A stretch of 32,701 bases of DNA from Planoprotostelium fungivorum. Its lineage: Eukaryota; Evosea; Variosea; Cavosteliida; Cavosteliaceae. Both the position numbers and the translations under genes were made by a program. A model generated the notes under the pieces. That model made no database searches and was not told where the DNA came from. It worked only from the letters and a program-made list of their open reading frames with translations. The stretch lies in assembly GCA_003024175.1 (NCBI GenBank), contig MDYQ01000281.1:1-32701 (forward strand), written 5' to 3'. This document shows positions 3,401 to 32,701 of the stretch, in pieces (position 1 is the first letter of the stretch; every line of letters begins with the position of its first letter).

Positions 3401-4110
3401 GCACCTTCTCAGAGCAGTAAGGAATGAGCGCAGCTTCTCTGTTTTGTCAGTTGTACAACATCAGAATGCGCTCTGAGAGTGACATGCAGACAGATGTCGA
3501 CTGCGTACGGTAACAACCGCAAGAGGTTGAGATTTACATCGACAATTCTTTCACTGCATAACGAAGCAGCACACGCGAGAGAAGAGACAACAGCAACAAC
3601 AAACATGTCTGATAGACTGCCACCATTCGAGGTCACTCTGAGGCATAGTCAAGAGGCCAGGCAGAACTGCCACCACCCGTGGCAGTATCGTCCGCAAGAC
3701 AGAGGCAGTGTGAATGACTGCATCTTCTCTGCATCTACCTGCTCTGACAGCCAGGGCCGTCGAGAATGCATCCGTTGTAGATGTCGTCCGTCCAGCACAG
3801 GTGCCAAACATGGCTCCTTCTGCCGTCGCTCAGCCTCCTATCGTCCTCACCGAGTGAGCTCACACATGATGCCTCTTCTGAATGTTTCCAGGAGGGATCT
3901 CCTGCTGCTGAGGCAGGGGGGCAATTCATTTGCCATGTATCGTGGCATAGTGCGTTTCGAGGACTTGTCTGATGTCGACCGTCAAGAGATAGATAGAATA
4001 GGAGCTCTTATCGAAGCAGCCGCGTCGTGAGCCATTCCATTTTTGCCTCTTCTGCAGTCTACTCGATTCAGTTCTCAGGCGTAAGGCGAAACAAGAGTCT
4101 TTCAATACAC
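3401..4110 (+). repeat. Dispersed repeat copy 2
   Basis: This shorter copy is in the same orientation as copy 3. It starts abruptly at GCACCTTCTCAGAG, 20 nt past the last recognisable intron sequence of the histidine kinase, and runs through the small CDS into the shared 3' UTR word CTCAGGCGTAAGGCGAAACAAG. Homology fades near 4110, between here and the NMD3 stop. Compared with copy 3, it lacks the distal upstream part and a block between the two CTTCTCAGAG repeats. It forms the breakpoint that removes the 5' half of the histidine kinase. Confidence 0.8.
3605..4030 (+). CDS. Small repeat-encoded protein, copy 2 (unknown function)
   Basis: The CDS starts MSDRLPPFEVTLRHSQEARQ. Removing two introns at the positions used in copies 1 and 3 (the second is GTGAGC...TTTCCAG, 38 nt) gives a continuous protein of about 115 aa. 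It contains VVDVVRPAQVPNMAPSAVAQ and ends GIVRFEDLSDVDRQEIDR plus about ten residues. The reading frame, both introns and the stop region are preserved although the DNA has diverged from the other copies, which argues for a real gene family. No family is recognised. The protein is mostly low-complexity and Pro/Gln/Arg-rich with an acidic C-terminal helix. Confidence 0.5.
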   Translation: MSDRLPPFEVTLRHSQEARQNCHHPWQYRPQDRGSVNDCIFSASTCSDSQGRRECIRCRCRPSSTGAKHGSFCRRSASYRPHRVSSHMMPLLNVSRRDLLLLRQGGNSFAMYRGIVRFEDLSDVDRQEIDRIGALIEAAAS

Positions 4111-6356: not shown

Positions 6357-6475
6357 CGTGCTGTCCGATGTGTTGTTCCAGTTGATTTCCGGAAATTTAT
6401 GAGATGAAATTCTGCATTTCGATGCCCCTCATCTACAACGCTTCTTTCCTATTTCACACATGAGATCGCGGCAGC

Positions 6476-13497: not shown

Positions 13498-13647
13498 ATG
13501 TAACATCAAAAGTGCATTTTATATTCTATTCCATGGATCTCATCTCGACAGCCGAGTATTGAGTCAACTCTTCTTCCGTTAAGATGACCTCTTCTCTCTC
13601 CTTCACTTGTCGCCTGCCTCACGTCACTCTTCTCTTTCTCTCTCTTC

Positions 13648-16600
13648 TCACCCAGACCCCAACGAATTTGAAACTGGAGGTATCCATTCATATCTGCGGG
13701 CTTGGTCGCCACCCAAAGAATCTAGATCAAAGGAGAGTCCACTCGCACCGGGTGTTACGTCGTGGAAAGACATACCGGCAGAGTTTTCGGGTGTGGAGAG
13801 GGGGGTCAAATTGCCCTGCGGCATGATAGAACCAACACCGAGGTAATGGCAGATGTCTTTGAAGGAAGGTCTGTCTCTTGGGTTATCCTGCCAACATCCT
13901 GAGGAGAGATGAGTTTTCAGGTGATGAGAAAGAGATGACGGTGATGGTGATGTTGTTTTGAAATGCACGAGAAGAGAAGAGAAGACGTCGGTGACGATCT
14001 GATGATGACGATGATGACGATGCTGATAATCGAGACAATCTCACGGTGCATCAGAGCGTGCATCCCTTCTTCGCAAGGATCGGGCACGGGAAGCCGTTTA
14101 CCATCAGCCACGTTCAAGGCCACTTCCAAGTGTGGAATATCCTCCCACGGCTCACGCACTGTTTTCCTTCAGTCATCTCTACCATCTCCTTTTTCATCGA
14201 ATGTCGTATTCACCTGTGAGGATCTCCCATACGACTACACCGAAAGAGAAGACATCTGACTTTGTCGAATATTGCTGACTCTTTAGAGCTGAGAAGATTC
14301 AGACGTCTGTATCTCCTTGATCGACTCACATTCTGGTGACATCCACTTGATGGGTCCGATGTTGGATGTCGTTCTGAACCATTCAGTCTCATCGTGATGT
14401 GATGATCGATCAGATCGATGATAAGGGTAACAGACGACGTCGATGAAGGATGACGGATGTTGTAGATGATGGATCTCACAGAGATGGACCGTCTTCGTCT
14501 GCTGTCTGTTGCTCTCGACTCAATCCAAAGTCTGACACCTTCGGCTCCAAATATTTTGACAGAAGTATATTTCTCACCGCCAAGTCACGATGCACGATCT
14601 ACACGGTTGTAGACGAATCACAGATGGATGACGAGGCATCTCACCTTCTCCAAGTGCAAGTGAAGCATGCCGAGAGCGATGCCTTGTATGAATCTGTATC
14701 TCAAAGCCCACGGCACTTGACTCATACGAAGGAACGCTAAGATGGTCAGAATGACACGATGTGAACGAAGATCGAATTCGCACCATACATACTTCCTCCC
14801 TCGCAGAATTCCTGATGTGAAATGAGACTATTTCATAAATGAGAAGGAACTCACCGTGATGAGAGCCAACGGATCAGGCGGGAAAGTTAATCCCATACTG
14901 CTATCGTCACTACCACATCTCTCGTGACTTCATCACTCACAATAATACTACGTTGGGATGTGCTCTCAGTCCCTGCAAGATGGCGACTTCTCTCACAAAT
15001 TCCTGTTTCCGTTCAGATCCATTTTAGCGGGAGCTTTTCATCACCTCCAACTGATTCGCATTGATGCTGCCCTGTTTGACCATCTTCACTGCGACAGACA
15101 GACTCCTCCATTCGGCTCGGTAGACGACTCCGAATGCTCCACTGTCTCTCATCAACACATCGCGAGACTCATCATCACACCTTCCGATCTGTTTCAAGTT
15201 CTTCAACTCTGAGAAATCAACAACTGACTTCTTAGCTGCTCCCAGATTGATGTTGGACAGGTCCACGTTAGTCACGATACCACCCAATAGCTCTCTCTGT
15301 CGACAAATCAGTCGTCCAATTCTGTACATGTACAAGATGTAGACTCACCCTCCTCTGTTCTCTGAGCCTGGCATAGAAGAAGAGTATGATGCCGATGACC
15401 AACATGAACACGATGAAGATGACAGCCACCACGATGCCCACGGTAGCTCCCGTGCTCAGACTCGTCTTCTCTGGAGCAGGTATGGGAGATACGATCGGAT
15501 CTAACATCTGAACCAGTCAGATGCGGATGAACCATGGATGATGACACATACTTGTATACCATTCTGAGCAAAGGTGGATGAAGGTGTCTGTTGTAGAATA
15601 GTGACGATGCGATCTGATGAGCCCTGGTTGAATGCACCGTTGGGGCCCGTCAATGTCATGTCAACGATGACTGATCCAGATCTACAACGCGTCAGATTTC
15701 ATGTTAAAATTGAACTTCAGAGATCACCGTATGGAGTTGATTGTGAGACGAGAAGAGGAGATGTTTGTGATGCGACAGATGCTGGATGCGAAATCGTCTC
15801 TGGAGAAGGTAGACACATCTCCCGATATTCTCATTCGTAGCGTCTGCAATTTATCTCCTCCTGACTGACAGGTCGCCCTGCAGGCTGTCGATGTGTCATC
15901 TACACCGTTGTAGATGGATCGTTCTCGCCTGAGAATGTGAAGAGAGGTAGAGGGCATTCGAGTACATTGTTGGATAGATCGCACGATGTGAGATATTGGC
16001 TGTTGATGGACTGAATGAACTGTAGATTGTTGTGGCTCATGTTCAGAGCCACGAGAGGTGCATCGATGGCAGACACCTTCACAGAGTGAGAATTCTGAAC
16101 GAGTGAAGAGAGGCATACCTGACCGCTGAAATTGTTGTTCTGTGCATACAACATCTGCAAGTTGTCTGACGACGTCAAGTCTGGAAATTGTCCGGACAGC
16201 TCATTATCTGACATACTTCAGATGAATTGTCGTAGTGGAAGATGACACACCTTGCACGTAGAGGTGAGTCATGTGCTGTCTGTTACTCATACTCGGAACA
16301 CTACCGTTGAACCTGTTCTCTGTTATCCCGTGACATGCCATCGGATTCTCATCGGATTTCCTCTCACTTGTTGTGATGTATGTACAGCTCTTGCACGGAG
16401 ATGAGAGACGACATCCAACTGACTCCTCCCCCTATCTCATTGTACGACACGTCGAACATCGCAGGATCGGATATGACTGCCGATATCCTTCCACTCAAAC
16501 TGTTTCTCTTCAGACATACATTATCATGATTACGACTTACTTGTTGTTGGACAGGTCGACCACCTTCATGTTCCTCGTATTGGATAAAAGGTTGTCTACC

Positions 16601-19564
16601 GATCCAGTGAGAAAGTTATACGACAGATCTAGATGCTGCAGATTCGATTCTCTCGTAAAGATCTGCGGTATATCTCCCGACAGAAAATTGTTACTTGTAC
16701 AAGTTATTTTACGTTACATCGACATGTACGCATCACACCTGACTGATAGCCAGGTCAGGAGGGGTAACACTGCGACAGACGGTGGGAGATAAGTCAACAA
16801 GTTACCATCCAGGGCAAGAATGGTCAAGCTCTTCGCGACTGATGACGTCATTTCGCATCATTCTATTTGACTCACCGGAGAAGGCGTTGATCGAACCTAC
16901 GAGCTTGTTGTACGATGCATCGAAGACAGAGAGGGTAGTGATGGAAGCCACCCCCGGTGGAATCTATGTACGTTCAGACCACGATGACACGACGATCATC
17001 GCGAATGAGATGATGATTTACTCCTCCAGTCAAACGATTGTGAGAGATGTTGAGATGAATCAAGCCAGTCAGACGAGAGAAACTGTAAGGTAGGGAACCT
17101 TCGAAGATGAGTGGTCGATCCATCTAGAATCATCGTTCTTCACCTTCGAATTGATTCGCAGAGAGATCCATCGTCTCGATGCTGGCCAAACTCTGCGGAT
17201 CATTCAAAATACAAATCGAGCAGGAATAATCTCACGTCACCGTGGGAACTCATCGTTCCATAGAATAGATTGTGTGCTACTTTTAATGTTTTCAACTTCG
17301 ATTTGTCAGTCTGTTCATCATTACCTTTGATAATATTCACCGAATTCAAACCAGTAAGATCCGATAGAGTTCCACCTGACATCCATCATCCATCTACCAC
17401 GTTGTAGATGCTCACTGATCTGATTGTACGACGCATCCATGTATGTCAAGAGGGGCATGTTACGTATCACTGTGATACGTGTGGTCTGCAGAAGATTGTG
17501 AGATAAATCCAGATAAGTCAAGAGGGGAACGTTATCCAATACTGGGAATGTTCCATTGAACCTGAAGCGATGAGAAAGAATAAAGAGAGAGACTGACTGA
17601 TTGAAGGATGCATCGAGATACGCCAGTGAGATTGGGGTAGTGGGGAGGTATAGAGATCCTGCACCGTCAGATGAGCGTGGGTCGATGATGATCACGATGA
17701 TGATCTGAATTTCTTTTGTCTCACCGTAAAAATAGTTGTGCGATATGTCTACATACTTGAGATTGGGTGTCTGGAAGAATGAAACGGGGAGCATTCCAGT
17801 GAAAGAGTTATTCGCCAAAAGAAAACTGATGGCGTAAGGATATTTCTCTATGACGTCATCGTGTGTCATTCGCTCACGAGATGAGACCTTGTGGAAATGT
17901 CATCGAGGAATTGACGGAACCAGAGAATCCATTTCCCGCTACATTGATGACTTGTAAATAGGGGCAAGCTGCGAGGGTGTCGAGGATCTACAACCAGTCA
18001 GACGATGACGTGTAAAGACGTCATCACCTCTCCTGACATCGAATTTTGACTCAGGTCCAAACTGTACAAGTAGCTACCCGCGTAATCCGAGGGAAATTCC
18101 CCGGAGAAATTGTTGCTCGATAGGGACAACTGTACACGTCAGATGACATCATCGCCATCGTGTACGTACAATACTGAGGGTAGGGATGTAAGGGACAGGT
18201 CCGGACATGTTGCAGTAAGAGACGTCTAAGTATTGGATTGGTGTCTGATTCAGCTCCTGTGGAATGCTTCCCGTGATCTGCTGAAACGACATAACCAAAA
18301 CAATAAGTTTCTTCATGTTTCCTGCGGACATGTCAGGCTTATCTACAAAGCAGCACTTTCACCGACTGAGGGTGGCAAGGGACCGGTGAAGAGGTTTCCC
18401 GCCAAAATGACGTCTGTGACATCGATCAGTCACGTGACGTCATATATACATACACTGTAGGTTGGAGTCTGCACGAATATTCGGAGAAATGTTTCCCTCG
18501 AAGCGGTGACCATCGAGATCCATGTAATACAAGTCCGGAAGATTCCACAATTGATCCGGTATTGTTCCGGTCAAATTGCCCGTACTCTGTCGACGTCACA
18601 ATTTCTCGGAAATTTGTGACGCTCACGAAATCGATGTACTCCAAGGTTTGAGCCCACCGAGAGGGTAGGGAACCATATAAGATATTTCTAGGAAGAGAGA
18701 GATAAGAGAGATTGAGCATGGAGAAGGACTCTGGAATGGAAGAGCTGATCTGTAGAGACGTCAGCGACATCATCACGATGTGACGGAAGAGATCGATGTT
18801 GAATGGAATGCCAAGTGACGCTTGAGATGTCTTCCAACGCACCACATTGAAATCGAGCTCGAGGTAGGTCAGACTCGGCCAAGACGGCAGTTGGAAGAGA
18901 TCTCCGCCGATGCGATTGTTGGCTGCCACAAATGATTGCAGTGTCTTCTGTTCACCCAATGCATGGAGAGACCCTTCGAACTGTTTCGATCTCGTCAGAA
19001 GAGCCCGTCGTTGCGGCTATCTCACAGTGTTGAACGAGATGTTGAGGAAAACAATCTGAGGTAATGTGTGAAACAAGCCGAGATCCCCAGACAGGATGTT
19101 TGTTCCGAGGCTTAACACTTGCAGCTGTGATAACCCAGACAGATCAGAAGGCAGTCCTGTTTTGGAGTGAGAATCATCAATCCACGAAAAAGTTACCCCG
19201 CAGAGAGTTTCCCGTCAAGTCTAAGGAGGTGAGATTATACAGCTCGTTGATGGTGGAAGGTATCGTTCCGTCCAAGTTGTTGTAGCTGCTCTCTTTAGAT
19301 ACTCTGATGATGGAACTGCAGCCACCTGAGATCCAGGGTGAAGACAGGATCACATGAGATCCCGTACCAACTACAATAGTCTTCTGAAGATCCCCATTTG
19401 TCTTTGATGAACCAGGCGTCTCCTGCTCCCTCTTCAGCTCGTCACTCGCCTGAGATACAATCACCTTGCGTCTCATTATAGAGTGTCAGCAAAACAGAGC
19501 GGAAATCTGCCAGACACAGATGTATCGACAGGAGAAAGAGTACAGTGAGTAGAGCTCTCTTCAT
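13648..19564 (-). CDS. LRR receptor-like protein kinase (tyrosine-kinase-like)
   Basis: The signal peptide is [19 protein letters not shown], followed by an LRR N-cap with [11 protein letters not shown]. The ectodomain (about 19350-15700) is a long series of plant-type leucine-rich repeats, for example [29 protein letters not shown]-type units, [12 protein letters not shown] and ISYNQIS, spread over many small exons. One transmembrane helix ([21 protein letters not shown]) lies at about 15447-15370. The cytoplasmic kinase has [19 protein letters not shown] (catalytic Lys near 15085), [42 protein letters not shown] and [13 protein letters not shown]. HRDLAxRN is the loop found in tyrosine and tyrosine-kinase-like enzymes, so Tyr specificity is possible. 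It ends after a Ser/Pro-rich tail. It is probably a surface receptor; the ligand is unknown. Exon joins within the LRRs are approximate. Confidence 0.85.
14595..14615. repeat. Intronic palindrome at a 3' splice site (kinase gene)
   Basis: On the gene strand this reads GTCTACAACCGTGTAG followed directly by the exon ATCGTGCATCGTGAC (IVHRD). The right arm of the palindrome supplies the AG acceptor. Confidence 0.6.
15898..15917. repeat. Intronic palindrome (CATCTACA...TGTAGATG)
   Basis: This is a near-perfect 20-nt inverted repeat. On the gene strand it is CATCTACAACGGTGTAG followed by exon sequence (ATGACACATCG...), so it again ends on the probable 3' splice site. Confidence 0.6.
17391..17410. 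repeat. Intronic palindrome near a 5' splice site (LRR exons)
   Basis: On the gene strand the intron begins GTGAGCATCTACAACGTG and continues GTAGATGG, so the palindrome starts five bases into the intron, directly after the donor GTGAG. The intron is about 40 nt, so half of it is the palindrome. Confidence 0.6.
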
Positions 19565-19885
19565 CTTCGTGTGGTTGTGTCGGTTATGCCCACACTGCGG
19601 CTTCTGTCTTTGACGTGTGCTCCGATGTCATCGGTCCACCAGAAATACCTCAATCGATGAAAAAAAAGTTCCTGTGACAACCGTCACAGTACATCCGATC
19701 GATCTAGAGGTTCGTACAACGCAGGATGATGCTCAAGGAGCTCATCATCACACGCAGAACGGCACATCACTTCCCCTCTCTCTACATAACACATACACAT
19801 CGAGCTCATCGGATTCTTTGTCCTCCTTCACGTCAGTGTCAGCACAGCGATCCCTCCGAATCGTCACAACTGCCATGACAAGTAT
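19565..19885. other. Intergenic region between two minus-strand genes
   Basis: This is the promoter side of the LRR kinase and the 3' flank of the RalGAP gene. A plus-strand open frame (19617-19895) shows no family features and overlaps the RalGAP end, so I do not call it. The only structure noticed is an inverted repeat, CCTGTGACAACCGTCACAG, next to an A-run at about 19660-19690. No clear TATA box is visible. Confidence 0.4.
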
Positions 19886-22800
19886 CTATTTATAGCACAT
19901 CAAGACTCTGGCAGTGACGTCCTCGACTTGTCCACGGATGTTCTCTCGGTAGAAGTCCTTCTTCACGTTAGTTCACGTGAACGTCCCCGGTAGTTAACGT
20001 GTCACTTACCTAGAATTTGTGCTACCGAGGAGCAGGGCGGGGGGAGAATTAACGGCCATGGGAGGTATCACCACGGAATCCCGAACGTTCTACAACGATC
20101 AGTCGATGACGTCATCATTCGTCATAAAAGAATAAAATCAAATAAAATCACCGTGCTCTCGCTGCTGGCCATGACTCCCAGCATCTGTTCCTCCCAAGAG
20201 GTCTTCGTTGTAGATTTAGAGATGGTGTCAGCTAATACGCGGTGGCGTGCTGCGTAAGAGGAATCGTGCTTGTCCATGTAGTAGTACCGGTGGGCGTTGA
20301 TGGCAGTTTGGCGCGCTAAAAGTGGAAGAATTTTCTTGGGAACGATCATACCGTGGAGGAGGGGACCGAACACGGGCACCTACTCCCTTGAGCATCGAAT
20401 ACATTTTGGCGGGAAAAATTTGGCGGGAAAACACACCTCTTCGTCCTTTTTGGCGACTACAACGCGACACATTCCGTTGGGAAGGGGGCAGAGGATGATG
20501 TGAGCCTGGTTGAATTGGGACACGATCGTTTTCGGAGAATATTCCCTCCCGTTCTCGTTCCAAATAACGTGCACGGCATCATTACCCACGTGACGTTTCT
20601 ACCTCACGTCAGTGACCGAAATTTCACCGAAATTTCGATGAGATGTCTATGCGTCCACCTTCAATAGCTGTTGTTTGTCGTCTGGGTTGGTTGGCATCCT
20701 GGCAATCTCGTGGAACATCAGTTCGAGCATAGGTCCTGCAAAATAGCTGCTCGTCTTGCCGTTGCTTCCCTGTGGATCTAAACCCGCGAGATATCCCTGG
20801 AAATCCGTGAGTGGCTCGTTGTAGACGGACGGTACCCACCCTGTGAGACGACAATTGTACCGGCCAGGCGAGACCGCTGACGAATTCGTGGTAGTGAGAA
20901 GATGCACTGTCGTTGGCCAATATCTCGTGCTGCGTCTCCTGTCCTTCTTTCACGTAGATCAATCCCACTTTGATGACGTCACGACTGACACGTTTCAGTG
21001 AAATTTCAGATCGATCTACAACTCACGTCGGTGCCTTGTCTAGATTTCTCAATTTGAGTAAGAAGGCTTTGTTTGGCTCGACTAATTTGATGTTGTCCAA
21101 TTGGTCACTGAGAAATCCCATTTGGGATAAGACTTGTCTGCCTGCGCTCTTCACGGGGAGGTGGAGGGGTAAGGGTCTGCGTGACGTCATCGTCCGTCTA
21201 CAACGGTGTAGATGGGTACGTACCGGGTGGCGGGACCGCAGGGTACCGGTTGGACGGAGGAGTCGCTCTTCTGCTGTTCGATGTACATGTCTTGCATGTT
21301 TGCAATAGAAGGTAAAAATTGGGCGGGAAGAAGAGAAGGTCTCAAAAGTGTGTTCTGCCCTTCGGGTAATAACTCTGGATATTTTCCACCCAGACTACCA
21401 TCACGTCAGGGGATGCGAAAGAATGTCGACCGAGAGATGTCGACAGTGGACTCACTGGAGTAAAAGCTCGTCCCACTTGTCGACATTCTCCGTGTCGTTG
21501 GGTCTGTGCACGGGAAGCTCTGGGACAGATGCTCCGGAGATTTCGGACTTTCGGATCAATTCGGGTGCCGGCTGTGCGGACCCCGGAGAAATGAACGAAT
21601 CTCTCTTGATGAGGCTGATGACGTCATCATTCTTCTTGTCTCCCTCTACCGGCCAGAAATTCCACGCGAATTTCCCGGCGGCGGTTCTGCTGAACACTCT
21701 CGTACAGCGTCCTATCAATATCAGTGATGAGGTCACGTGACGTCACTCACCCGATGGGCTGGCGGGGTCGGGCACTTCGACCACGGAGAAGACAACTTCC
21801 CCGTTGTAGATGAAGTAATCCACGTCATCGTTCGCTTGGTCGTCCCCTTCGTTGATGGAGCTGCAGACGTTGTTCCCAGGAACTGATGGGAAACTGCGGT
21901 GATGGTGGAGGAGGAGGTAGAAGAGAGATAGAGCCGAAAACTGTTTGGGTCACGTGATGATTCACACGAAGAAATGTCACCCGAATGTTGGCCTTGTGTG
22001 CCGTCACTTCTTCTGTGGGCTGCTTCGCTTTTTGGTTCGATTTCGTCTTCTTCTTCTTTATCTCTGAGAAGGAATGAATGGAGATGAATACGTCTACAAC
22101 GAGCCTCACCCAATTTCTTCGCGTGGATTCCGTAGGAGATCAACAGGGAGATCTGTGACGTCATCACCCCGCGAAATTTCATCGGAATCTCACCAGTTTC
22201 GCCACGTCGGCTGATTCGAGGAGGGAGGGCTCCATCAACAGCCACTCGGCCAGAGCATCAAAGTGTGCACATAAGAGATGCTCCATTCGATTGATACCCC
22301 CCGACGTCATCTCCCTCATCAAGTTGTTCGCGATACCGTTCAAGATGGACGATGGGAAACTCTGATGACGTCATCATGACGTGTGATGACGTCACACTCA
22401 CCGGGTCCAAGTTTTTGAGTTCGGGGATGACTTGTGCCAATCCAACGAGGGCGTCTAGGGCGGTGACACCAACCATGTGATCGTATATCTCTGTTCCAAC
22501 GCTGACGCCTGTGTTTTCTATCAACACGTTGATCAATTCTCGGATCTTGGCGATGCTGGGGGGGTGTCAGATTTCGATGAAATTTCGGGTTACGTACTCG
22601 GGGTTGTAGTAGAGACGGTCCATGATCATGAGGTAGATGGACCACAAGCACATGCATTTCATTTCGGTGGGTCCGAAACTGATCTCGCCGACCAAGAGTG
22701 ACGTGATGTGTTCACGTAACTGGAAATTTCAACGGAAAGTGGGGACGACGAGACTCACCTCGGCACACGTGACCTTCTCCTCGATGCCGAATACCTGGAA

Positions 22801-25800
22801 TATTCTCAGAAATTTCACGGAAGAGTGTGATGACGTCACCTCTTTGGTCTGCTGTCTGTGTTGATGGCCGACATATTTCATTGGAATTTCCACGTCGGAG
22901 TATTGGGACAGGGTAGAGATGATGGAGGCCAACAGGATGACACACTTTCTGCGGATCCTCAGCGGTGTCTTCTCCGTCTTCAACTGTTCCGATCGTCAAT
23001 CTACAACGAGCCACTCCGGACCCCTCACCAGCCTCTTGATCTCCTTCAAATAGTAAGGTAGGAGAACAGTGGCACCGGGGAGTCCCAAATTGAAGATGTT
23101 GGATGTACAATCGATAACTGTCTCAGTCATGGTATTGTTATCGGGTATGGGGTTACACAGCAACTGTACGGTGTGAATCCCGTGGAAAACTCGCGGAGAA
23201 CTCACGTGGTGGACGATGTTGTAGAAGTGAGGTAAGATGACGTGTGGCATGGAGTTGACCCTCTGGTATCTACAAATGAGGCGAGAGAGACCTTCCACCG
23301 CAAAGATCTTACTCTTTTCGAATTTACTGAAATTCCCGTGAGTTTTCCATCGAATCTACGTGACTCACTCGCTGAGATAGCAGGCCTCGAACAACAAAGG
23401 ACCGAAGTTATTTAACAGTTGTAGAGGGATCGAACTGTCACCACCCTCCTCTGAGAAATTTCAGAGATTCTTCTCGGATTTTTCTCACCCGTCTGGGCTA
23501 GGATGGCAGCGTAGGGTGCTCGGGATTCAGCTTTCAAGAAAATTTCTACGACTTCTACGATGGCAGACAAAGAGGAAGCGTGGATGGCGTTGTCCTTCAG
23601 ATGATTCGTAGCCGAAAAACTTTCTGTGAAAAGTGAAGGAAAAGATGGAGAAAATCTTGAGATACGTAAGGATACGTAAGAGGGAAGCCCACACGAAGCG
23701 AGCGTAATCGTGAGTCCAGTCGAGCTTCTCGAAGGGGTTGGGACTGTGGGGGATCAATCGATTGAGACGATCTACAATGCGAAAGATATTCACCCTGGAT
23801 CTCTCCTGATCTGGCTGACATCGTCCGGTGTCTAAAAATAGATTCAGTCTCCTATTCACATAACGAACCTCACCAATGAAGGTGCATCTTTGTTCTTCTT
23901 CGCACTCCTACACATGGAATCAGAATAAACCAAAATAAATCATCCGAATCAATGCTTGTAGTGAACCATTTCGTCAACTCACGTTCCCTCCAGCTTGACC
24001 TTCTCCTTCTCAACGATCTGTGGATAAACGAAATTACACAGAATGATCGAAGTGTGGATCAAGATCATCTACAACTGTCATCTCTCATCCTAACGATCCA
24101 CCCCTCCACCTTCAACTGCTCTACGGTCTCTGCCCTGTGGAAAATAGGCCACAGACCTTCCTGCAGCCTCACCCACATCTCAGGGTCGCGACACTTGGAA
24201 GAGATCCAGCAGTAGAACACCGTTTCGATGACATCTTTTGCCAAAGAGGATGCCAGCTCTTGATTGTTATCCCTCTTCAACAGTGTGTTTGTGATCTCCA
24301 ACAGAGTGAACAGGAGGACGTCTCTGTTGCGTGTGAGGGTGGGGTGAAAAAAAATGGTGGGAGCGGGGATCGAAGGGTGGCTCACCGAATCTCGCTGGAT
24401 AATTTGAGAGGATTGAAGGCCTTGCGGAAGAGTTCTAAGACTTCTACGCAGAGGGCAGCTCTTGCCTCCGTGTTCGTTCTCGATTCGCAGACGAATAGGT
24501 TGGGTAGCCCCTCCAGAAAGTACTGTGAAATGTCGGTGAAAATCGACGATCTACAACGCACCTTTTGGAAATTAACGAAGGCGGGGTTCTGCACGATGGC
24601 GGTGGAGGGACTGCTGGGCTCGATGACCTGAAAAGTCTGAGAAAAGAGGGAGAAATTTCACGGAAGAGTCACCAAAAGCATGTTGTGAAAGATCTGTACG
24701 GACTGTCTCGTCGTCTCGATGTGTTCTACTGGCAGAAAAAGTGTCTGCTTGTAGATCTCCATCAAAAGCCCCACGTCAGTCTGTGTCGCCCTGTTGACGT
24801 GAGGAACGTTCATCTACAACGCGTCTCACCAGAGTACGTTGAGGCATTCGCGGTGGCCGAGCCACACTTTCAATTTGGGGATGAGAATGTTCTGCATTTC
24901 GAATGGAGAATGAATGGGAAAACCATAATCTACAACGATCAGACGATTGTAGGTGTGACGTCATACCCGAGTGCTTGTCCAAGAGTCCCAGCTCCTTGCT
25001 GATGTCGGGGTAGAAATAGACGATGTAGTACTTCTTGAAGAGAGACCAGCCCAGCGGAAAAAGTCGCAAGTTGTTCGTGATGATGGTGAGGAAATGTTCG
25101 ACAATTCTAACCGTGTCGTCCACGCTGGGTGGACCCAACGCGGGTAAGAGCAGAGCCGCACCGTCAGCTACTTGAAATAAATGAACATTTAATCGTGATC
25201 TACAACTCACCGCTGGGGATCTTGTTGGGAAGGATGATCTTGGCATTGGGGTAAGCGGGTACGAAGACACTCAAATCTGCGACTGCGCCAAATGCAGAAT
25301 TCTGCGCTGACTCGGGTGAATCGAGGTCATCCAGGAACATGATGAGCAGCTCCAGACCTAACTGTCTGACCTGACGGGTTATCAGCGAATTTTCCACTGG
25401 ATTTCACGTGACGATGGTCACCTCGTAGCGATTGTTGCGATCGAGCAGTTTCTCTATGATGGCGGCTGTGTCACTTGAGTGAGAGGAGGAGAGGGTAGGG
25501 AGATGACTTAAGATGCAGAATGATGAGAGATGGTGGAATGTGATGATTTGGAAGCAGATCATCTGATATGATGTCGATGATACGATGAGATCGCCACGGT
25601 GGAAGTAGAAGACACACACCTATGCTTCGGATCTGCCACTTCTCCTTGATCTTCTGTGGCAAGAAGACGAAGATCTTCCGCATGATGCTCAACAGCCGCT
25701 CGATCTCTGAATGAGATGAATACCCTCCACTCTCGTACGATGGATCCGAATGGATCGTGACGCTCACCTTCGAATTTTCGTGGTGTCTTCTGCTGTTCAT

Positions 25801-26154
25801 ATGCTTGGAAGGTGTCTAAGAAGACCTGCCATATGTTGTATGCATCTTTCTGAAAGAAAGGGCCCAGCTCGTCGTCGCTCGCCGCTTCTGCAAACATACA
25901 TTCAGATGGATTGTTGAGATGGATTATCTGGATTCGACTCGTATGAATGCATTAGAGTGAATGATTATTCTTGAAAGAGGAAGAATTTCGTAAGTTCATT
26001 CAGAATCGGAGGAGGTGATATGCCATATGTGCTTTAGCCGAGTGAAACCCCAGAGAAGAAGAAACTCACCCGTGAAGGTGATCAGGGACTTGAAACGTTT
26101 ACTGAGAGGTGCCTTCGTATCATTAAACTCTTTCAATTTCTTATCTTTCGACAT
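19886..26154 (-). CDS. Ral GTPase-activating protein subunit alpha-like (Rap/RanGAP domain)
   Basis: The N-terminus matches RalGAP-alpha: MSKDKKLKEFNDTKAPLSKRF, DELGPFFQKDAYNIWQVFLDTF, EIERLLSIMRKIFVFLPQKI, EKWQIRSIGV. It is followed by a helical-repeat body of about 1,300 residues (for example RQLGLELLIMFLDDLDSPES). The C-terminal Rap/RanGAP domain has LMFHEIARMPTN, then HVGNDAVHVIWNENGREYSP, whose GND Asn is the catalytic 'Asn thumb' of this GAP family. It continues QFNQAHIILCPL, VPVFGPLLHGMIVPKKILPLLARQTAINAHR and a short tail ending VLMCYK. RalGAP complexes inactivate Ral/Rheb-type GTPases upstream of exocyst or TORC1. The body holds about 25 short introns rich in TGACGTCA and ATCTACAAC words. 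The start could also be the in-frame ATG at 26184. Tuberin is the nearest alternative; the N-terminus favours RalGAP-alpha. Confidence 0.9.
20404..20431. promoter_or_regulatory. Tandem E2F-like sites inside a RalGAP intron
   Basis: Two consecutive TTTGGCGGGAAA words, 15 nt apart in the same orientation, lie in the short intron between the exons encoding VVVAKKDEE and VPVFGPLL. They match the E2F consensus; an intronic location is unusual and function is unproven. Confidence 0.35.
21195..21214. repeat. Intronic palindrome (CGTCTACAACGGTGTAGATG)
   Basis: A full 20-nt palindrome within a RalGAP intron that also carries a TGACGTCA octamer (21182-21189), so both intronic words occur together. Confidence 0.6.
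22366..22394. repeat. Double TGACGTCA in one RalGAP intron
   Basis: Two perfect TGACGTCA octamers (22366-22373 and 22387-22394) flank CATGACGTGTGA within a single short intron. They are part of a set of at least 14 such octamers in the window. Confidence 0.6.
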
Positions 26155-26737
26155 CCCGTTCGTTCCGCCTTCTCTCGTAAGCATTTCTCTCTCATCTCCA
26201 ATGCATCTCCTCCCTTTCTCTCACCTCTTAACCCCTCCTTCTGAGCTGCGAAGGATCTGTCAACGTTAACGTGTCAGACAGTAACTACTTGTCTCTGCAG
26301 GAGCTCAACAACTGCGGTCTAACCCGATTTCTCGGTTTGACCTCGTGAACCTCGGGCCCGGAGCGTTTCGAGCGAAAAACAAAAATCCTCTGCTGGTTGT
26401 TGACCCACTCACTCATGATTTCAATCTATCTTCAGAACACACAACCTGATTCACACGCTCTTCTATGATTCACCCCCTACGACTGATGGACGACGCGACT
26501 AATTCTTTGATTCACCTTATCGGCGCGTGAATCCTAGGGATTGATTTCAAGAAAAGAAAGCTGTCAGCTTCACAACTCGTCTCCGTGAAATTGTGCTCTG
26601 TGGGAAGTCCTCGGCCGACTCCAGAACGTAGACTGAGGCACTGTTGCGCTCAAATTGGGCAGGTTAGGTTGTCCTATCACACACTGGGAGCGACAGATAC
26701 GAGGGTCGGAGGTCTAAAGACCGACCGAGAGATTGAA
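26155..26737. other. Divergent intergenic region between RalGAP and the MST-like kinase
   Basis: These 583 nt hold both promoters. A GTTAACGT palindrome near 26270, pyrimidine-rich tracts at 26200-26240 and a short GGTCTAAAGACC palindrome at about 26711-26722 are visible. Plus-strand codons stay open from 26585 into the kinase but resemble no protein. No tRNA-like cloverleaf was found. Confidence 0.4.
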
Positions 26738-29700
26738 ATGGAGGACGGCTCAGCGATGGTGTTACCCGATTTGAACATCATACCTATCATAGAACAAGCA
26801 GAAGAGATACCATGTATAGAGAAAGGTGTACCACCTGAGCAGCAATTCGACTTGATAGAGACTATTGGGAAAGGGTATGATGTGAATCTATGTCAATCAC
26901 CTGAAACGAATCAGATCGTGTGGGTCAGTTTATCTATATAGTCACATAGTGACACAAAGACTCGTTGCCATAAAGAGGATGTCCATCGTACAGAATCGCG
27001 ACTTAGATGAGATCCGTAAAGAGATTCAAATCATGCAGCAGTGCCGCAGCAGGTGTGAAATATTATTTCATACATTCACGTTTATTTACGTCGTTATCCA
27101 GATACATCGTATCATTCTATGGTGAATGTTGGCTTCCATCCAGTCACGAGATGTGGGTGGGTCACGAAACATTTTCTCCTCTCTTCTCACTTCTTCAGAT
27201 CGTAATGGAATACTGCGAAGGTGGTTCCGTGGGCTCCATAATGCATCGCATCAGGAGAGCTCTGAGAGAGATCGAGATCGTCGTCATCGTCAGAGCCGCT
27301 CTCTCTGCTCTCCAATACCTCCATCACTCTGGAAAGATCCATCGTGACATCAAGCCGGACAACATACTCATCAATCACAAGGCAGAACCCAAGCTGGGTG
27401 AGTGAGATCCTTCGATGATGTCGTCTGACGTCACACAGCCGATTTCGGTATCACGATGGAGCTCAGTGGTAACAAGAGAGAGATGAAGACAGTGATGGGC
27501 ACTCCTTATTTTCTCGCCCCTGAAATTTTAGAGGGCGAGGTTAGATACAACGACAAGGTGAGTTTGTGATGGTTTAGATGGGTCTGAGAAGAGAAGGTGG
27601 ACATATGGGCTTTAGGCATCTCCATCATCGAGGTGAGTTCTTTTCGTCATATCGATACTCATCTACATCGGTGTAGATGGCCGAACAATACATTCCTCAT
27701 GGAAGTTGTAATGCCATGAGAGTGAGCACCCGTCATCTGATCTCATCATCACCTTGCCTCTCCATCGTTTCGAAATTTGTCTAAACATGATGTGAAACAA
27801 ATTTTCAACGTTTTCGAACTGAAACAAGATTTCATCGTGATGTCATCTCATCATCATCAGGCCATTCGTCTCATCACGACCGAACCTGCTCCACGACTGT
27901 CTATCGACAAGGGATGGTCCAGTGAATTCCAAGAATTCGTCTCTCTCTCCTTGACGAAAGATCCAGTGGCCAGAGCTAGCGCCAGCGATCTCCTCAAGGT
28001 ATATCGACCATCTACAACCGGCCTGATCTATAAATAGCATCCATTTCTGGCCACTTGGGAGGGAGACCTGATGCCCATGTTGGAAGAGGCTTTGAACGTC
28101 ACGAGGAACAAGGGTAGGAGGAGGTGATCATCTACATCGTTGTAGACGTCCACGTAAATCTGACACCTCCAGACACGCTTCAGATTCACCCTCACCGATG
28201 GGATCACCACAGATCACGCGTCAGAGATCACTGTATGTTTTATTCTATTTTATTTCTCTCCCCCTTTAAAGATGAAAATAGAAAAAAAACGATTTTTATT
28301 CTCTCAAAGCTAACGTGGAGACAGACCGAGCACACCCGATATGAGAACAGAGAAGATGACCAACGAAGAGATTGGAAGCTTGCGAGTCAATCTAGAACGC
28401 CAGAAGATTCAAATCGAAGCAGAGAGGAAGGCCATCGAGGTCGAAAAGGTCAAATTAGAAGATCAAAAGAGGATCATCAAGCAGAAGGTGAGACGTTTAT
28501 TTTCACGTGAATCAGAATTATTGAAGAGGGGAATCAGGCGCGAAATCTCATGGGTGAGAGATCTTCCATCAAAGCAGAGAAGAGGAACATCGATTCCAAT
28601 CGAGAAGAGATGCTGTCAAATCGTGAAGAGAGAGCACAGAGAGAGGCAGAATTCAGGAGGAGAGAAGAAGGTGAGTCGTTGACGTTTGTCGTATCGCTGA
28701 CGCTCGTGAAGAAGCGCGGCGGCGGAGGGAAAGAGAAGAAGAGGAGATACGTAAGAGGGAGGACCACGAAGAAGAAGAGAGGAAGAGGAGGGAGGAGGTG
28801 AGTTCCCGCCATTTTTTCCCGCCAAAATTCTGAGCCCGCCAGCTCATTCGACAGAAGGGGATAGAACTGTCACAGATGTCGACGACGTTAGATGAAGAAG
28901 ATTTACAGATCGAAAAGTCCATCGAAAAGATCACACGATCTCTCGCCGAACTACAAATGGTGAGAAATTTACGAGAACGACGATCTACAATTCCTTCCAT
29001 CTACAATGCTCACCTCTACAGACTCTAGAGGAATTATCGGAGAGATTTCTGCTCGTAACGGAAACAGAGAAGGAGGAAGCAGTCAGCCTGCAGAAGCAAA
29101 AAGAAGAAGAGTTAGCCACAGAGAAAATCGTGGAGGCCAAATTACAAGCCTTACAGCAACAAGAAGAAGAGCGACTGAAGCAAGAGCGAGAGAGCATGAG
29201 CGTGGCCAGTTCAGACGACCAGAGGCCACAGCTGGTGAGAAGATATTCGACATCAGACGAGAACCCGTCGAGCTGATCGTGTGACAGCCCCCACCGAAGA
29301 ACAAGCTCAAGATGAGATCACCCAACAACAGTCTCCGTTCAACGGAGGCGAGACCTCTTCCCGATCCACAACCTGTGAGTCTTCGATACGTTCATGAGGT
29401 GTTGTCTCTGTGTGGTGCACTCAAACGAAGAACAGTCGCCGAAAATCGTCCTCTCTCCCACTGTATCGAGCCCGACATTGGGTGTCCCAGCTTCTCCAAT
29501 CGTCAAATCTCTATCGGCTGAGACACCAAAGGTAGGGACAGACTTTAAAATCGATCGAAATGGATTTTATTCATTCCTCCAGGACTTTGTGGCGAGTCGG
29601 GCGAATCCGTCTACAACGGAGGAATTAGATCTGAATCACTTACCACCGGGGTGGGCCACAGCTTTAGATCCGAAGGGGAGGAGATACTTCATCGACCACA

Positions 29701-29810
29701 CGACCAGAATGACGCACTGGAAGTTACCTGACACGGCCATCCAGTGGATGAACAGCAACCGAGATAAGAAGGGGAACAAGATACCAGCGCCACTCATAAA
29801 TAAACGCTGA
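26738..29810 (+). CDS. MST/Ste20-like kinase with coiled coil and C-terminal WW domain
   Basis: The kinase domain comes first: FDLIETIGKGYDVNLCQSPE (glycine loop, with only the first two glycines), VAIKRMSIVQNRDLDEIRKE, IVMEYCEGGSVGSIMHRI, KIHRDIKPDNILI, ADFGITMEL, VMGTPYFLAPEIL (Ste20/GCK signature), VDIWALGISIIEMAE and LTKDPVARASASDLL, HPFL. After a Ser/Pro linker come several exons of heptad-rich Glu/Lys/Arg sequence (about 28341-29230; for example LQALQQQEEERLKQERESM). Then follow Pro/Ser-rich segments with several SP sites and a canonical WW domain, LPPGWATALDPKGRRYF...MTHWKLPD (about 29638-29733). All exons join in phase across about 17 short introns. No SARAH domain is evident. It resembles Hippo/MST kinases; the WW domain suggests binding to PPxY partners. 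Confidence 0.88.
27660..27679. repeat. Intronic palindrome at a 3' splice site (MST-like kinase)
   Basis: CATCTACATCGGTGTAG lies at the end of the intron after ...ISIIE, and the exon begins with the palindrome's last bases (ATGGCC, MA). This plus-strand gene shows the same arrangement as the minus-strand ones. Confidence 0.65.
28130..28149. repeat. Intronic palindrome just after a 5' splice site (MST-like kinase)
   Basis: CATCTACATCGTTGTAGACG begins five bases after the GTGAT donor of the intron following ...NKGRRR. It shares CGTTGTAGACGTC with the coding part of the dispersed repeat. Confidence 0.6.
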
Positions 29811-30054: not shown

Positions 30055-31527
30055 CGAAAGATCATGGCGTATGATCCACCGTCGTACTGCTTCACATCTC
30101 ACATATGTGTACGCCTCCGATGTAATAGACCAGTTGATACAACACATCATATGATGGTTCGGAGATGCGATGCCTGCTGCGCATGACATATTCCGTGGGA
30201 ATCTGGGTAAAGTCGAAAGCCAGAGCAAAGAGGATAAATATGGACTTGATCTCGTTCACGCGAGTGTATATCGATTGCTATCCACGTCGTGTCTGCAGGA
30301 GTTGCTCTGTGGAACTTGATCTAGGAGATGAGTTTATTCTCACAGATCGACAGTTCCGTCGTTATGTATAGCTTCTCGGTCATCACAGTTAGTTCGAGGA
30401 TATAGGGAGAGAGATCCTCAGAGATAGAGGTAAGCAGATGTCCGACAGCGGGATCTGAGCAAGCGTCACAGCAACAGCTGGGACAGATCACACGCTCAGT
30501 AAGCCGCAGCCTGGCGAGCCGTTTTTATTCCGTCATCTTCCTCCGTCAGATCTGTGTCTTTAACACCTGCACGCTCCATCCATCCCGCAGTATAACGCCT
30601 TCTCAGAGCTGTAAGGAATGAGCGCAGCTTCTCTCTTTCTTATCAGTTGTCCAGACAACATCACATCTGTAACTTTAACAAGGGCATGCTCCATCATTCC
30701 TTCGGCATAGCACCTTCTCAGAGTACAAAGGAATGCGCTCTGAGCGTGAGTGACATGCAGACAGATGTCGACCGCGTCATCGCACGGTAACAACCGCAAG
30801 AGATCGAACTATGCTTCTGCACTTGTTTGCAACATAACAAAGCGGCAACAGTCAAGAGCAGCAACAAGATGTCCGATCGATTTCCACCCATCCGAGGCAC
30901 AGTGAGACCCCAGGAACCAGTGCTGCCACCTGTGGTAGCATCGCCGGCGAGACAGTGTAAGTGACCTCATCTTCTCTATTGCTAAACACTACAGCCCCAC
31001 TATACGCCTCTACCTCCTGTGGCAGCCAGGACCACCCAGAACACACCCGTTGTAGACGTCGTCCATGCAGCACAGGTGCCAAACATGGCTCCTTCTGCCG
31101 TCGCTCAGCCTCCTGTCATCCTCACCGAGTGAGCACACACATGATGCCTCTTCTGAATGTTTCCAGGAGGGATCTCCTGCTGCAGAGGCAGAGCGGCAAT
31201 ATATTTGCCGCGGCACGTGGCATAGTGCGTTTAGAGGACTTGTCTGATGTCGACCGTCAAGAGATAGATAGACTAGAAGCTCTTATCGAAGCAGACTCGT
31301 CGTAAGCCATTCTATTTTTGCCTCTTCTGCAGTCTAACTCGACACAGTTCTCAGGCGTAAGGCGAAACAAGGACACGACCATAAGTCTTTGAATAAATCT
31401 CTCTTCATACTTCTTATGGATCGTGTTCTCCCAATTTGTTCATCGTGCCGTCACGCATGGTTCCTGAAAATCGATGAGATGCAACAGTTCACCACCCCCA
31501 GACTGTTGTTATGATGCACGATATCGC
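30055..31527 (+). repeat. Dispersed repeat copy 3
   Basis: This is the longest colinear partner of copy 1, inverted relative to it. Homology starts near GATCATGGCGTATGATCC (30055) and stops at GCACGATATCGC (31527), the very base with which the window's first copy begins. It carries the CTTCTCAGAG double repeat, the small CDS and the AATAAA-containing 3' UTR. It holds about 200 nt (roughly 30187-30384) absent from copy 1, bounded by CATGACA and CATCACA. Confidence 0.85.
30869..31305 (+). CDS. Small repeat-encoded protein, copy 3 (unknown function)
   Basis: It starts MSDRFPPIRGTVRPQEPVLP and, with two introns at the same places as in copies 1 and 2 (the first ends ...TGTGGCAG, the second is GTGAGC...TTTCCAG, 31129-31166), stays in frame through TTQNTPVVDVVHAAQVPNM and QRQSGNIFAAARGIVRL to EDLSDVDRQEIDRLEALIEA, stopping at TAA 31303-31305. 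The first intron must use the later acceptor, because the earlier one is put out of phase by a 5-nt difference from copy 1. Family and function are unknown. This and copy 2 are the best-preserved members. Confidence 0.5.
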
Positions 31528-31741: not shown

Positions 31742-32701
31742 TTACATCTTGCTGCTGTGACGTTTGAGTTCTTCCATCGTACGGATGATGATGTCGTGTT
31801 GAATCTTTGACGCCTGCAGGGCCATTCTCTTGTTTGGTGTGTCTTTTACGTTCCACTCCACCTTCTTCATCTCTTCCAGCTGATGATGTAACACACGATG
31901 CACCTGCGGCACATCAACACATGTGGAGTCGTGCAAAGAGTTGCCCTCTTCAATGTCTGTTGTTGTTCTTCGCGCGTGCTTTTGGACAGATGAGTCGACA
32001 GATCGCTGTCAACACCTCTCATGAGGAGGCGTAAAGAGGCGACGGGTCTCATTGTACTTCTTTGCATGTCAAGGATCACCTTCTGTAATTCCTCTCTCAC
32101 TGTTTCCTTCGCTATGTCTATGAATAGTCAAAAAGAGTACAGAGGATGCTGTTGGATATTGGATGATGTTGGCGATGATGTGCGAAGATGCGATCGCAAT
32201 GTTTTATTCCTTCTTACCTTCTACGTGAAATCGAATAAAATCTGTCTCAGCAGTATCTACAAATCCATACTTCTCCATCAGGTACTCATGACTTGATTCG
32301 TCCGGGGAGGCAAAGTAAGACAGGGTCACCTGATCATCCATCATCCACCATCATCCCACTCGATGTGTGATCACCTCTTCACCGGCTTGTTTATCTCTAT
32401 CCACGATGAAGCAGTCCGACACATGATTCTCTATCGTGTAGATGTAAGAGGGGCTGTCGATGGGTGGCCACGCATGATTGAAGAGGTCCGCGATGGGATA
32501 TAGGAAGGCTGACGAGCCATCACCAAAGACTCTGCTATTGACGACGCTGTAGATGTGCTCTAAATCGTCCAGGAGGGGTGTGCAGTTGTTGCCCTCGATC
32601 GTCTCGAGCATGCGCCGTCGGCAGTGGTCTGCTCTGGTTTGCAATGATGTTCCTCTCAGGAGTTCAATTTCAGATTTTGTGTAGTTGTTGAGAGGTGAGG
32701 C
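31742..32701 (-). CDS. SET-domain protein of the SETD3/Rubisco LSMT type (partial)
   Basis: The gene runs off the right edge, so its start is missing. Visible are SEIELLRGTSL, a helical insert ending LEHIYSVVNSRVFG, then FLYPIADLFNHAWPP (the NH motif of the SET active site). AGEEVTLSYFASPDESSHEYLMEKYGFVD follows, with the EEV and YF positions contacting S-adenosylmethionine and Lys or His substrate. A Rubisco-LSMT substrate-binding-like helical region (LRLLMRDIEEGNSLHDS, VLHHQLEEMKKVEWN, KIQHDIIIRTMEELKRHSSKM) ends at TAA 31742-31744. Four short introns are inferred. Family members methylate Lys or, for SETD3, a His of actin; the substrate here is unknown. Confidence 0.85.

Follow-up and report, generated by a model that had tools for sequence, protein, structure and literature searches.

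Why should one short palindromic word recur, far above chance, in the tiny introns of several neighbouring genes? The question is raised by a stretch of 32,701 nucleotides (nt) from Planoprotostelium fungivorum (GenBank assembly GCA_003024175.1, contig MDYQ01000281.1), all of which we analysed and refer to as the window, and in which a first-pass annotation had noticed the motif ATCTACAAC/GTTGTAGAT. Our analysis indicates that the motif is one of a small set of words that are enriched, palindromic with one spacing and present in both orientations, that transfer as lists among three long genes, that are absent near gene starts and from the introns of other genes, and that are in excess in coding sequence as well. 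The pattern looks more like protein-binding DNA sites than like a splicing signal or an RNA hairpin. The reading we favour, with a probability of roughly 45%, is that the words are double-stranded DNA sites for putative dimeric, sequence-specific proteins, lying in the transcribed interior of long genes; we infer that proteins bind them and that they act in gene-body chromatin or transcription.

Abundance and architecture of the motif

Over the whole window ATCTACAAC/GTTGTAGAT occurs in 18 exact copies where trinucleotide counts predict 0.3, which bears out the earlier claim of more than ten, and in 54 copies when at most one mismatch is allowed, against 7.07 expected and a maximum of 13 in 100 shuffles. 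Most copies are single half-sites. Full palindromes had also been reported, and six are indeed present, all with the single spacing ATCTACA-4nt-TGTAGAT and one of them with a mismatch in an arm. Inverted half-sites at a fixed spacing are what a dimeric site would show, and for the core TGTAGA a spacing of 4 is shared by all five inverted pairs that lie within 40 nt of each other.

The motif has companions. Among the top over-represented 8-mers of the window, with all words counted, are CGTTGTAG (23 vs 0.61 expected) and GTTGTAGA (31 vs 1.01), and the same count gives GGCGGGAA (7 vs 0.4), TGACGTCA (14 vs 1.17) and GAAATTTC (9 vs 0.81). Within introns the leading words are CGTTGTAG (6 vs 0.02), GAAATTTC (9 vs 0.23) and TGACGTCA (9 vs 0.32). 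At least three further words, TGACGTCA, GAAATTTC and TTTCCCGCC, share the distribution of ATCTACAAC/GTTGTAGAT; the first of these is what we take to be the bZIP/CRE consensus, and TTTCCCGCC is presumably that of E2F. In what follows a "word" means any of six motif 7-mers, TGACGTCA, GAAATTTC, or CCCGCC on the sense strand. The words were picked from the same window and the 600-bp cut used below was set post hoc, so that the tests of word location and distance are not fully independent. AT-rich and CATCATC-type words are over-represented too, separately from the palindromic words; unlike these, CATCATC-type words are raised in introns across the window generally (26 sense copies vs 4.56 expected).

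Distribution within and outside long genes

The first-pass annotation had placed nearly all copies inside introns. Of the 20 nine-mers it listed, 16 lie wholly within introns and four cross a splice site (14597, 20088 and 24928 over an acceptor, 15898 over a donor), but the statement does not extend to all copies: in our first gene models 20 of the 54 matches were exonic, of which 20818 later became intronic and 15898 was found to lie across an intron border. The listed nine-mer at 20817 was exonic in the automatic models and intronic once a 43-nt intron had been corrected; the one at 27660 lies in an intron, with the right arm of its palindrome running across the acceptor.

The stronger pattern concerns which introns carry words. 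In the curated models of three long genes, A, B and C (Table 1), 39 of the 81 introns lying 600 bp or more beyond the start codon bear a word, where shuffling predicts 5.21, while none of the 10 introns closer than 600 bp does (0.26 expected). In the other genes neither the 22 early introns (0.43 expected) nor the 14 late ones (0.13 expected) have any. Because shuffled introns give such expectations, the zeros are at background level, and only the late introns of long genes show an excess; by the same token, since only 0.26 word-bearing early introns are expected in the long genes, the avoidance of early introns rests on the comparison with 39 of 81 late ones. Fisher tests give p = 0.004 for early versus late introns within long genes and 3e-4 for late introns of long versus other genes, and a within-gene permutation gives p = 0.0025 at the 600-bp cut and 0.003-0.02 at other cuts between 400 and 900 bp. 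A dependence on distance from the start alone, as in a first count of 0/37 introns within 600 bp and 38/91 beyond, was abandoned: the 14 late introns of other genes, with NMD3 modelled as one 2.1-kb gene, are wordless, and therefore gene identity or region matters too.

Densities tell a similar story. These, like the within-gene permutation, the distance comparisons, the coding count of the short genes, the ACGT rates, the lengths of word-bearing introns and the word positions within them, the counts of palindromic 8-mers, the folding and splice-site scores, the comparison of intron bodies and the held-out tests, were obtained on models before curation. Late regions of the long genes hold 10.15 words per kb in introns and 1.42 in exons, and early parts hold none; other genes have 0.25-0.38 per kb in exons and 0 in introns. 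Intergenic DNA has 0.49 per kb, with three of its four sites inside copies of a repeated element, and a gene model within that repeat, tallied separately, has 2 sites in 753 nt. The excess extends to coding sequence, where the long genes carry 12 words against 2.25 expected (maximum 7 in 1000 synonymous shuffles) and the short genes 1 against 0.94. Exonic copies at 20457 and 20974 fall in the part of the gene B product that aligns to RALGAPA2, and the other exonic sites rest on gene models. The coding excess and the occurrence on both strands, the latter with a sense lean, point to sites that are independent of transcript context, with most exonic places being model-based.

Held-out and word-free tests

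Word lists taken from one gene can be tried on the others; in these counts overlapping 8-mers of a single site are tallied separately. Words present in at least four introns of gene B occur 26 times in the introns of genes A and C against 2.1 expected (maximum 11 in 300 shuffles), and not at all in short-gene introns (0.96 expected); with a threshold of three introns the counts are 41 against 5.7 and 2 against 3.9. Training on gene A with a threshold of three yields mostly GATGA-type words, found 38 times against 6.1 in genes B and C and 21 times against 8.0 in short genes; since they are raised in short genes too, these words are general to introns here rather than special to long genes. At a threshold of four GTTGTAGA alone is left (7 vs 0.08; short genes 0 vs 0.03), and training on gene C gives CATCTACA (4 vs 0.16; short genes 0 vs 0.05).

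The result can be recast with no chosen word. Any reverse-palindromic 8-mer is counted 41 times in late long-gene introns, where 14.6 (standard deviation 3.9) are expected, as against 7 (9.3 expected) in other-gene introns and 7 (7.6 expected) in all early introns. Gene A contributes 13 (5.7 expected) and gene B 23 (5.4 expected). When the known words are masked, 22 such 8-mers are left in late long-gene introns, TCACGTGA making up four of them. The reverse-complement symmetry of 6-mer enrichment is 0.36 in late long-gene introns, 0.13 in other introns and 0.27 in exons.

Relation to splicing and RNA folding

The motif had been interpreted as a spliceosomal intron signature. We find this too narrow, for 0/36 introns of other genes and 0/10 early introns of long genes carry words, with splice sites of the same kind. 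The finer observations behind it fare better. A palindrome arm ending exactly at the acceptor, as TGTAG/exon (the slash marking the splice junction), is confirmed at 14595, 20092 and 27660 but not at 15898, where the donor splits the palindrome, and copies starting just past the donor are found at 17391 and 28130 as described. In six introns the site serves as the acceptor (TGTAG/A), and in several it starts a few bases past the donor. The sites are compatible with splicing while keeping to no fixed place in the intron, motif copies being somewhat biased to the 5' side (18 copies, Kolmogorov-Smirnov p = 0.02; all 43 words, p = 0.06).

Could the words then be intronic splicing enhancers, that is, RNA signals that help to define very short introns and to which RNA-binding proteins or small nuclear RNAs bind? 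We consider this rather unlikely, although several observations are of the kind it predicts: the density peaks in introns, half-sites double as acceptors, the motif copies lean to the 5' side, and word-bearing introns are slightly shorter (42 vs 46.5 nt, p = 0.04). Moreover, single half-sites in the curated long-gene introns stand 15 sense to 7 antisense (p = 0.13), a lean that comes mainly from gene B with 11 to 1; over all introns of the earlier models the figures are 16 and 6 (p = 0.05). Against it stand the palindromy of two words, a main word that is two-sided with one spacing, sites in both orientations and an excess in coding sequence; 42 of the 81 late long-gene introns and all 46 other introns do without words, and donor and acceptor scores show no difference between introns with words and those that lack them (p = 0.65 and 0.59), so that an association with weak splice sites is not seen.

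An RNA hairpin, also proposed at first and here taken to shorten the distance between splice sites, is in our judgement highly improbable. The six palindromes could form stems of 6-8 bp with a 4-nt loop, and all 123 introns that were folded, the five longer than 120 nt being omitted, lean slightly toward more structure than their shuffles (mean z score -0.18, standard error 0.09). Yet the 24 motif introns show no extra folding (mean z -0.22, standard error 0.22) and fold no more strongly than wordless long-gene introns (-0.26), the folding of their antisense strand is no weaker (-0.47), most copies are half-sites, and two of the three asymmetric palindromes, read from their introns, would place an A-C mismatch in the sense RNA. 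One 40-nt intron, 18587-18626, is nearly a single hairpin (z = -4.35) and contains none of the words.

Comparison with known systems

Like the present words, periodic An/Tn clusters (PATCs) lie largely in introns, but they consist of phased runs of A/T, in contrast to the discrete palindromic words found here. PMC7725773 describes the PATCs of C. elegans as non-coding DNA that prevents transgene silencing. Plant intron-mediated enhancement, as described for IMEter, relies on dispersed, poorly conserved signals that boost expression when located in introns of the first kilobase, whereas the words of the window are exact, palindromic and located in distal introns of three long genes; the promoter-proximal enrichment expected of IMEter signals does not appear, none of the 32 curated introns within 600 bp of a start codon bearing a word. 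Sites of the CRE/bZIP (TGACGTCA) and E2F (TTTCCCGCC) types, whose equality with the consensus we assume, lie here in gene interiors, and neither is seen in the intergenic DNA of the window. Searches of open-licence papers turned up no report of the motif, nor any of palindromic words restricted to distal introns.

The words might instead be footprints left by introners, the intron-generating elements suggested in the first-pass annotation, or by other mobile DNA; we regard this as very unlikely. Sections of PMC7789003 describe introners with inverted repeats in Amoebophrya, Micromonas and Aureococcus, a likeness to the present introns, and four motif copies (469, 880, 3773 and 31048) lie in the repeated element of the window. 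Canonical splice sites do not decide the matter, as the same sections report them for Aureococcus introners as well. But introners, as described there, are repeated introns whose inverted repeats join the intron ends and whose borders carry direct repeats, whereas here the introns share short words and not bodies, the palindromes, which are compact, sit at different points along the intron, and words occur also in coding exons. When the inner parts of 128 introns were compared (ungapped, for pairs sharing an 8-mer), near-identical introns were not found: the best score was 16, and among the top 70 of the 548 pairs scoring 9 or higher, matches spanned at most 24 nt, with mismatches.

Candidate DNA sites in gene bodies

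A different kind of explanation is regional or neutral, namely that a domain of about 15 kb has its own word bias, or that short gene conversions spread words among the introns of neighbouring genes. We think this possible but doubtful. It would account for ACTCTTCCGTGAAATTTCT being common to two introns of gene B (22795-22839 and 24637-24672), for the wordless late introns of other genes (0/14), and for two facts that weigh on our own reading as well, the adjacency of the three word-rich genes (14.4-29.6 kb), which makes "long-gene interior" inseparable from "chromosomal stretch" in a single window, and the restriction of GAAATTTC to gene B. It fits less well with the avoidance of gene starts within the domain, both in the early introns and in a 2.2-kb gap over divergent starts, or with the fact that different words share one pattern, and it leaves the fixed palindromic spacing unexplained.

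Of the earlier proposals it is a protein-binding site that we retain, at the level of DNA and as predicted sites. In the reading we favour, candidate sites would be spread from about 600-900 bp past the start codon through the interior of long genes, with some in codons but most in introns, because introns would be free to hold them. ATCTACA-NCGN-TGTAGAT would be a palindrome of two half-sites, used whole or as a half, with TGACGTCA, GAAATTTC and TTTCCCGCC as companion sites, and where a half-site ends in TGTAG/A its AG would double as a splice acceptor opportunistically. Bound proteins may act on the gene body, for example by keeping long bodies permissive, by silencing cryptic starts or by affecting elongation; such a role is the simplest guess for words that are missing from gene starts and intergenic DNA.

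Several observations, beside the two just named and the sense lean of the half-sites, count against the DNA-site reading. In the 8.1 kb of intergenic DNA, the place where one would look for classical transcription-factor sites, there is no copy of TGACGTCA, GAAATTTC or GGCGGGAA. When the core is shortened to GTAGA, six inverted pairs have spacing 4 and five have another (38 in four cases, 21 in one). Word-bearing and plain long-gene introns have similar median distances from the start (2601 vs 2440, p = 0.35), so that only the first 600-900 bp differ. ACGT, which forms a core in two of the words, is no more frequent in the exons of long genes (3.97 per kb) than in those of short genes (4.67), and the reverse-palindromic 8-mers in the late introns of gene C (5 vs 2.9 expected) are not significant alone. 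Finally, the gene models are computed and contain errors, as the move of 20817 from exon to intron illustrates; the exonic site at 21619 is doubtful and may instead be where a 35-nt intron ends.

A bolder version, which we offer as a speculation more likely wrong than right, is a punctuation code of gene interiors: beyond about 0.6-0.9 kb, long genes would carry a lexicon of palindromic sites, seated mostly in very short introns but also, where this can be done, in the choice of synonymous codons, and read by dedicated proteins that manage chromatin or transcription through long genes. Why very short introns persist in large numbers is an open question. If such a code existed, they would be kept in part as landing places for DNA-binding proteins, a concrete and testable reason for their persistence, and the link of intron density would be with gene length and transcription, not with splicing.

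Gene models and individual sites

Gene models came from a purpose-written gene finder seeded with hand-chosen, clearly coding exons and later given an explicit intron-length model. Pfam hits were obtained for nine of ten scanned models, the one without being 31742-32701, and the products comprise a histidine kinase with response regulator, NMD3 (at that stage in two pieces), Maf, ELO, NYN, Rap_GAP with RALGAPB_N, a kinase with WW domain and ankyrin; an eleventh model matches UBE2C structures. Of the 127 curated introns 93 are 36-60 nt long. Alignment of the gene B product to RALGAPA2 (PDB 9qwp_A) exposed a false intron, 20841-20907, which the 43-nt intron of Table 1 replaced. Reading of the protein led to two edits by hand, the replacement of 15929-15984 by 15865-15905 and the addition of 29532-29582. 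Curated counts omit the introns of models in or next to repeats (starts 14, 3494 and 30755) and of doubtful models (9317 and 13128).

Table 1. Long genes, palindromes, selected introns and the word-free stretch, in window coordinates.
Feature	Position	Strand	Remarks
Long gene A, LRR receptor-like protein with kinase domain	13506..19476	-	39 introns (curated), words in interior; assignment read from translation
Long gene B, RalGAP-like, Rap_GAP and RALGAPB_N domains (Pfam)	20006..26154	-	34 introns; richest in words
Long gene C, protein kinase with WW domain (Pfam)	26738..29810	+	18 introns (curated)
Palindrome ATCTACA-CGGT-TGTAGAC	14597..14614		minus-strand acceptor at TGTAG/AT
Palindrome cut mid-way by donor	15898..15915		donor of 41-nt intron 15865-15905 (minus); exon ...CATCTACAACG / GTGTAGATG...
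Palindrome, one arm mismatch	17392..17409		directly past donor
Palindrome in intron 21177-21223	21196..21213		intron also with TGACGTCA
Palindrome	27661..27678		acceptor TGTAG/ATG at 27676
Palindrome	28130..28147		directly past donor
43-nt intron with GTCTACAACG	20797..20839	-	recovered by homology
Intron with half-site and one GAAATTTC	20985..21026	-	half-site directly past donor (GTGAGTTGTAGATC)
37-nt intron with TGACGTCA	24930..24966	-	TGACGTCA near 5' end; acceptor GTTGTAG
Intron with two TTTCCCGCC words	20380..20436	-
Intron with three CCCGCC words	28798..28854	+
Intron with two TGACGTCA words	22362..22401	-
Intron with two GAAATTTC words	20599..20658	-
Word-free stretch over divergent starts of genes B and C	25200..27425		gap test p 0.07, second gap 0.03

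The intron with two TTTCCCGCC words and that with three CCCGCC words, which belong to two different genes, have the 16-mer TTTTTCCCGCCAAAAT in common, along with repeated CCCGCC words; this 16-mer resembles what we take to be the E2F consensus. In the gene B product a RALGAPB N-terminal domain is combined with a GAP domain that, among solved structures, best matches the alpha subunit, RALGAPA2, and the kinase of gene C reads as one of STE20 type.

Searches of a collection of viral contigs with the idealised 18-nt palindrome, a piece of the repeated element and the UBE2C-like, NMD3 and RalGAP-domain proteins, and of a collection of genome contigs with the repeat piece, found no relative, and Rfam gave no match at gathering thresholds. 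One exact motif copy, at 6431-6439, lies just upstream of NMD3, between divergent genes, and is possibly in an untranslated intron. The repeated element itself makes up both ends of the window, 1-1688 and 30056-31527 being inverted copies about 28 kb apart (79-99% by block). Part of a third copy lies at 3404-4095, 258-531 and 669-942 form a tandem duplication, and the element is possibly a transposon.

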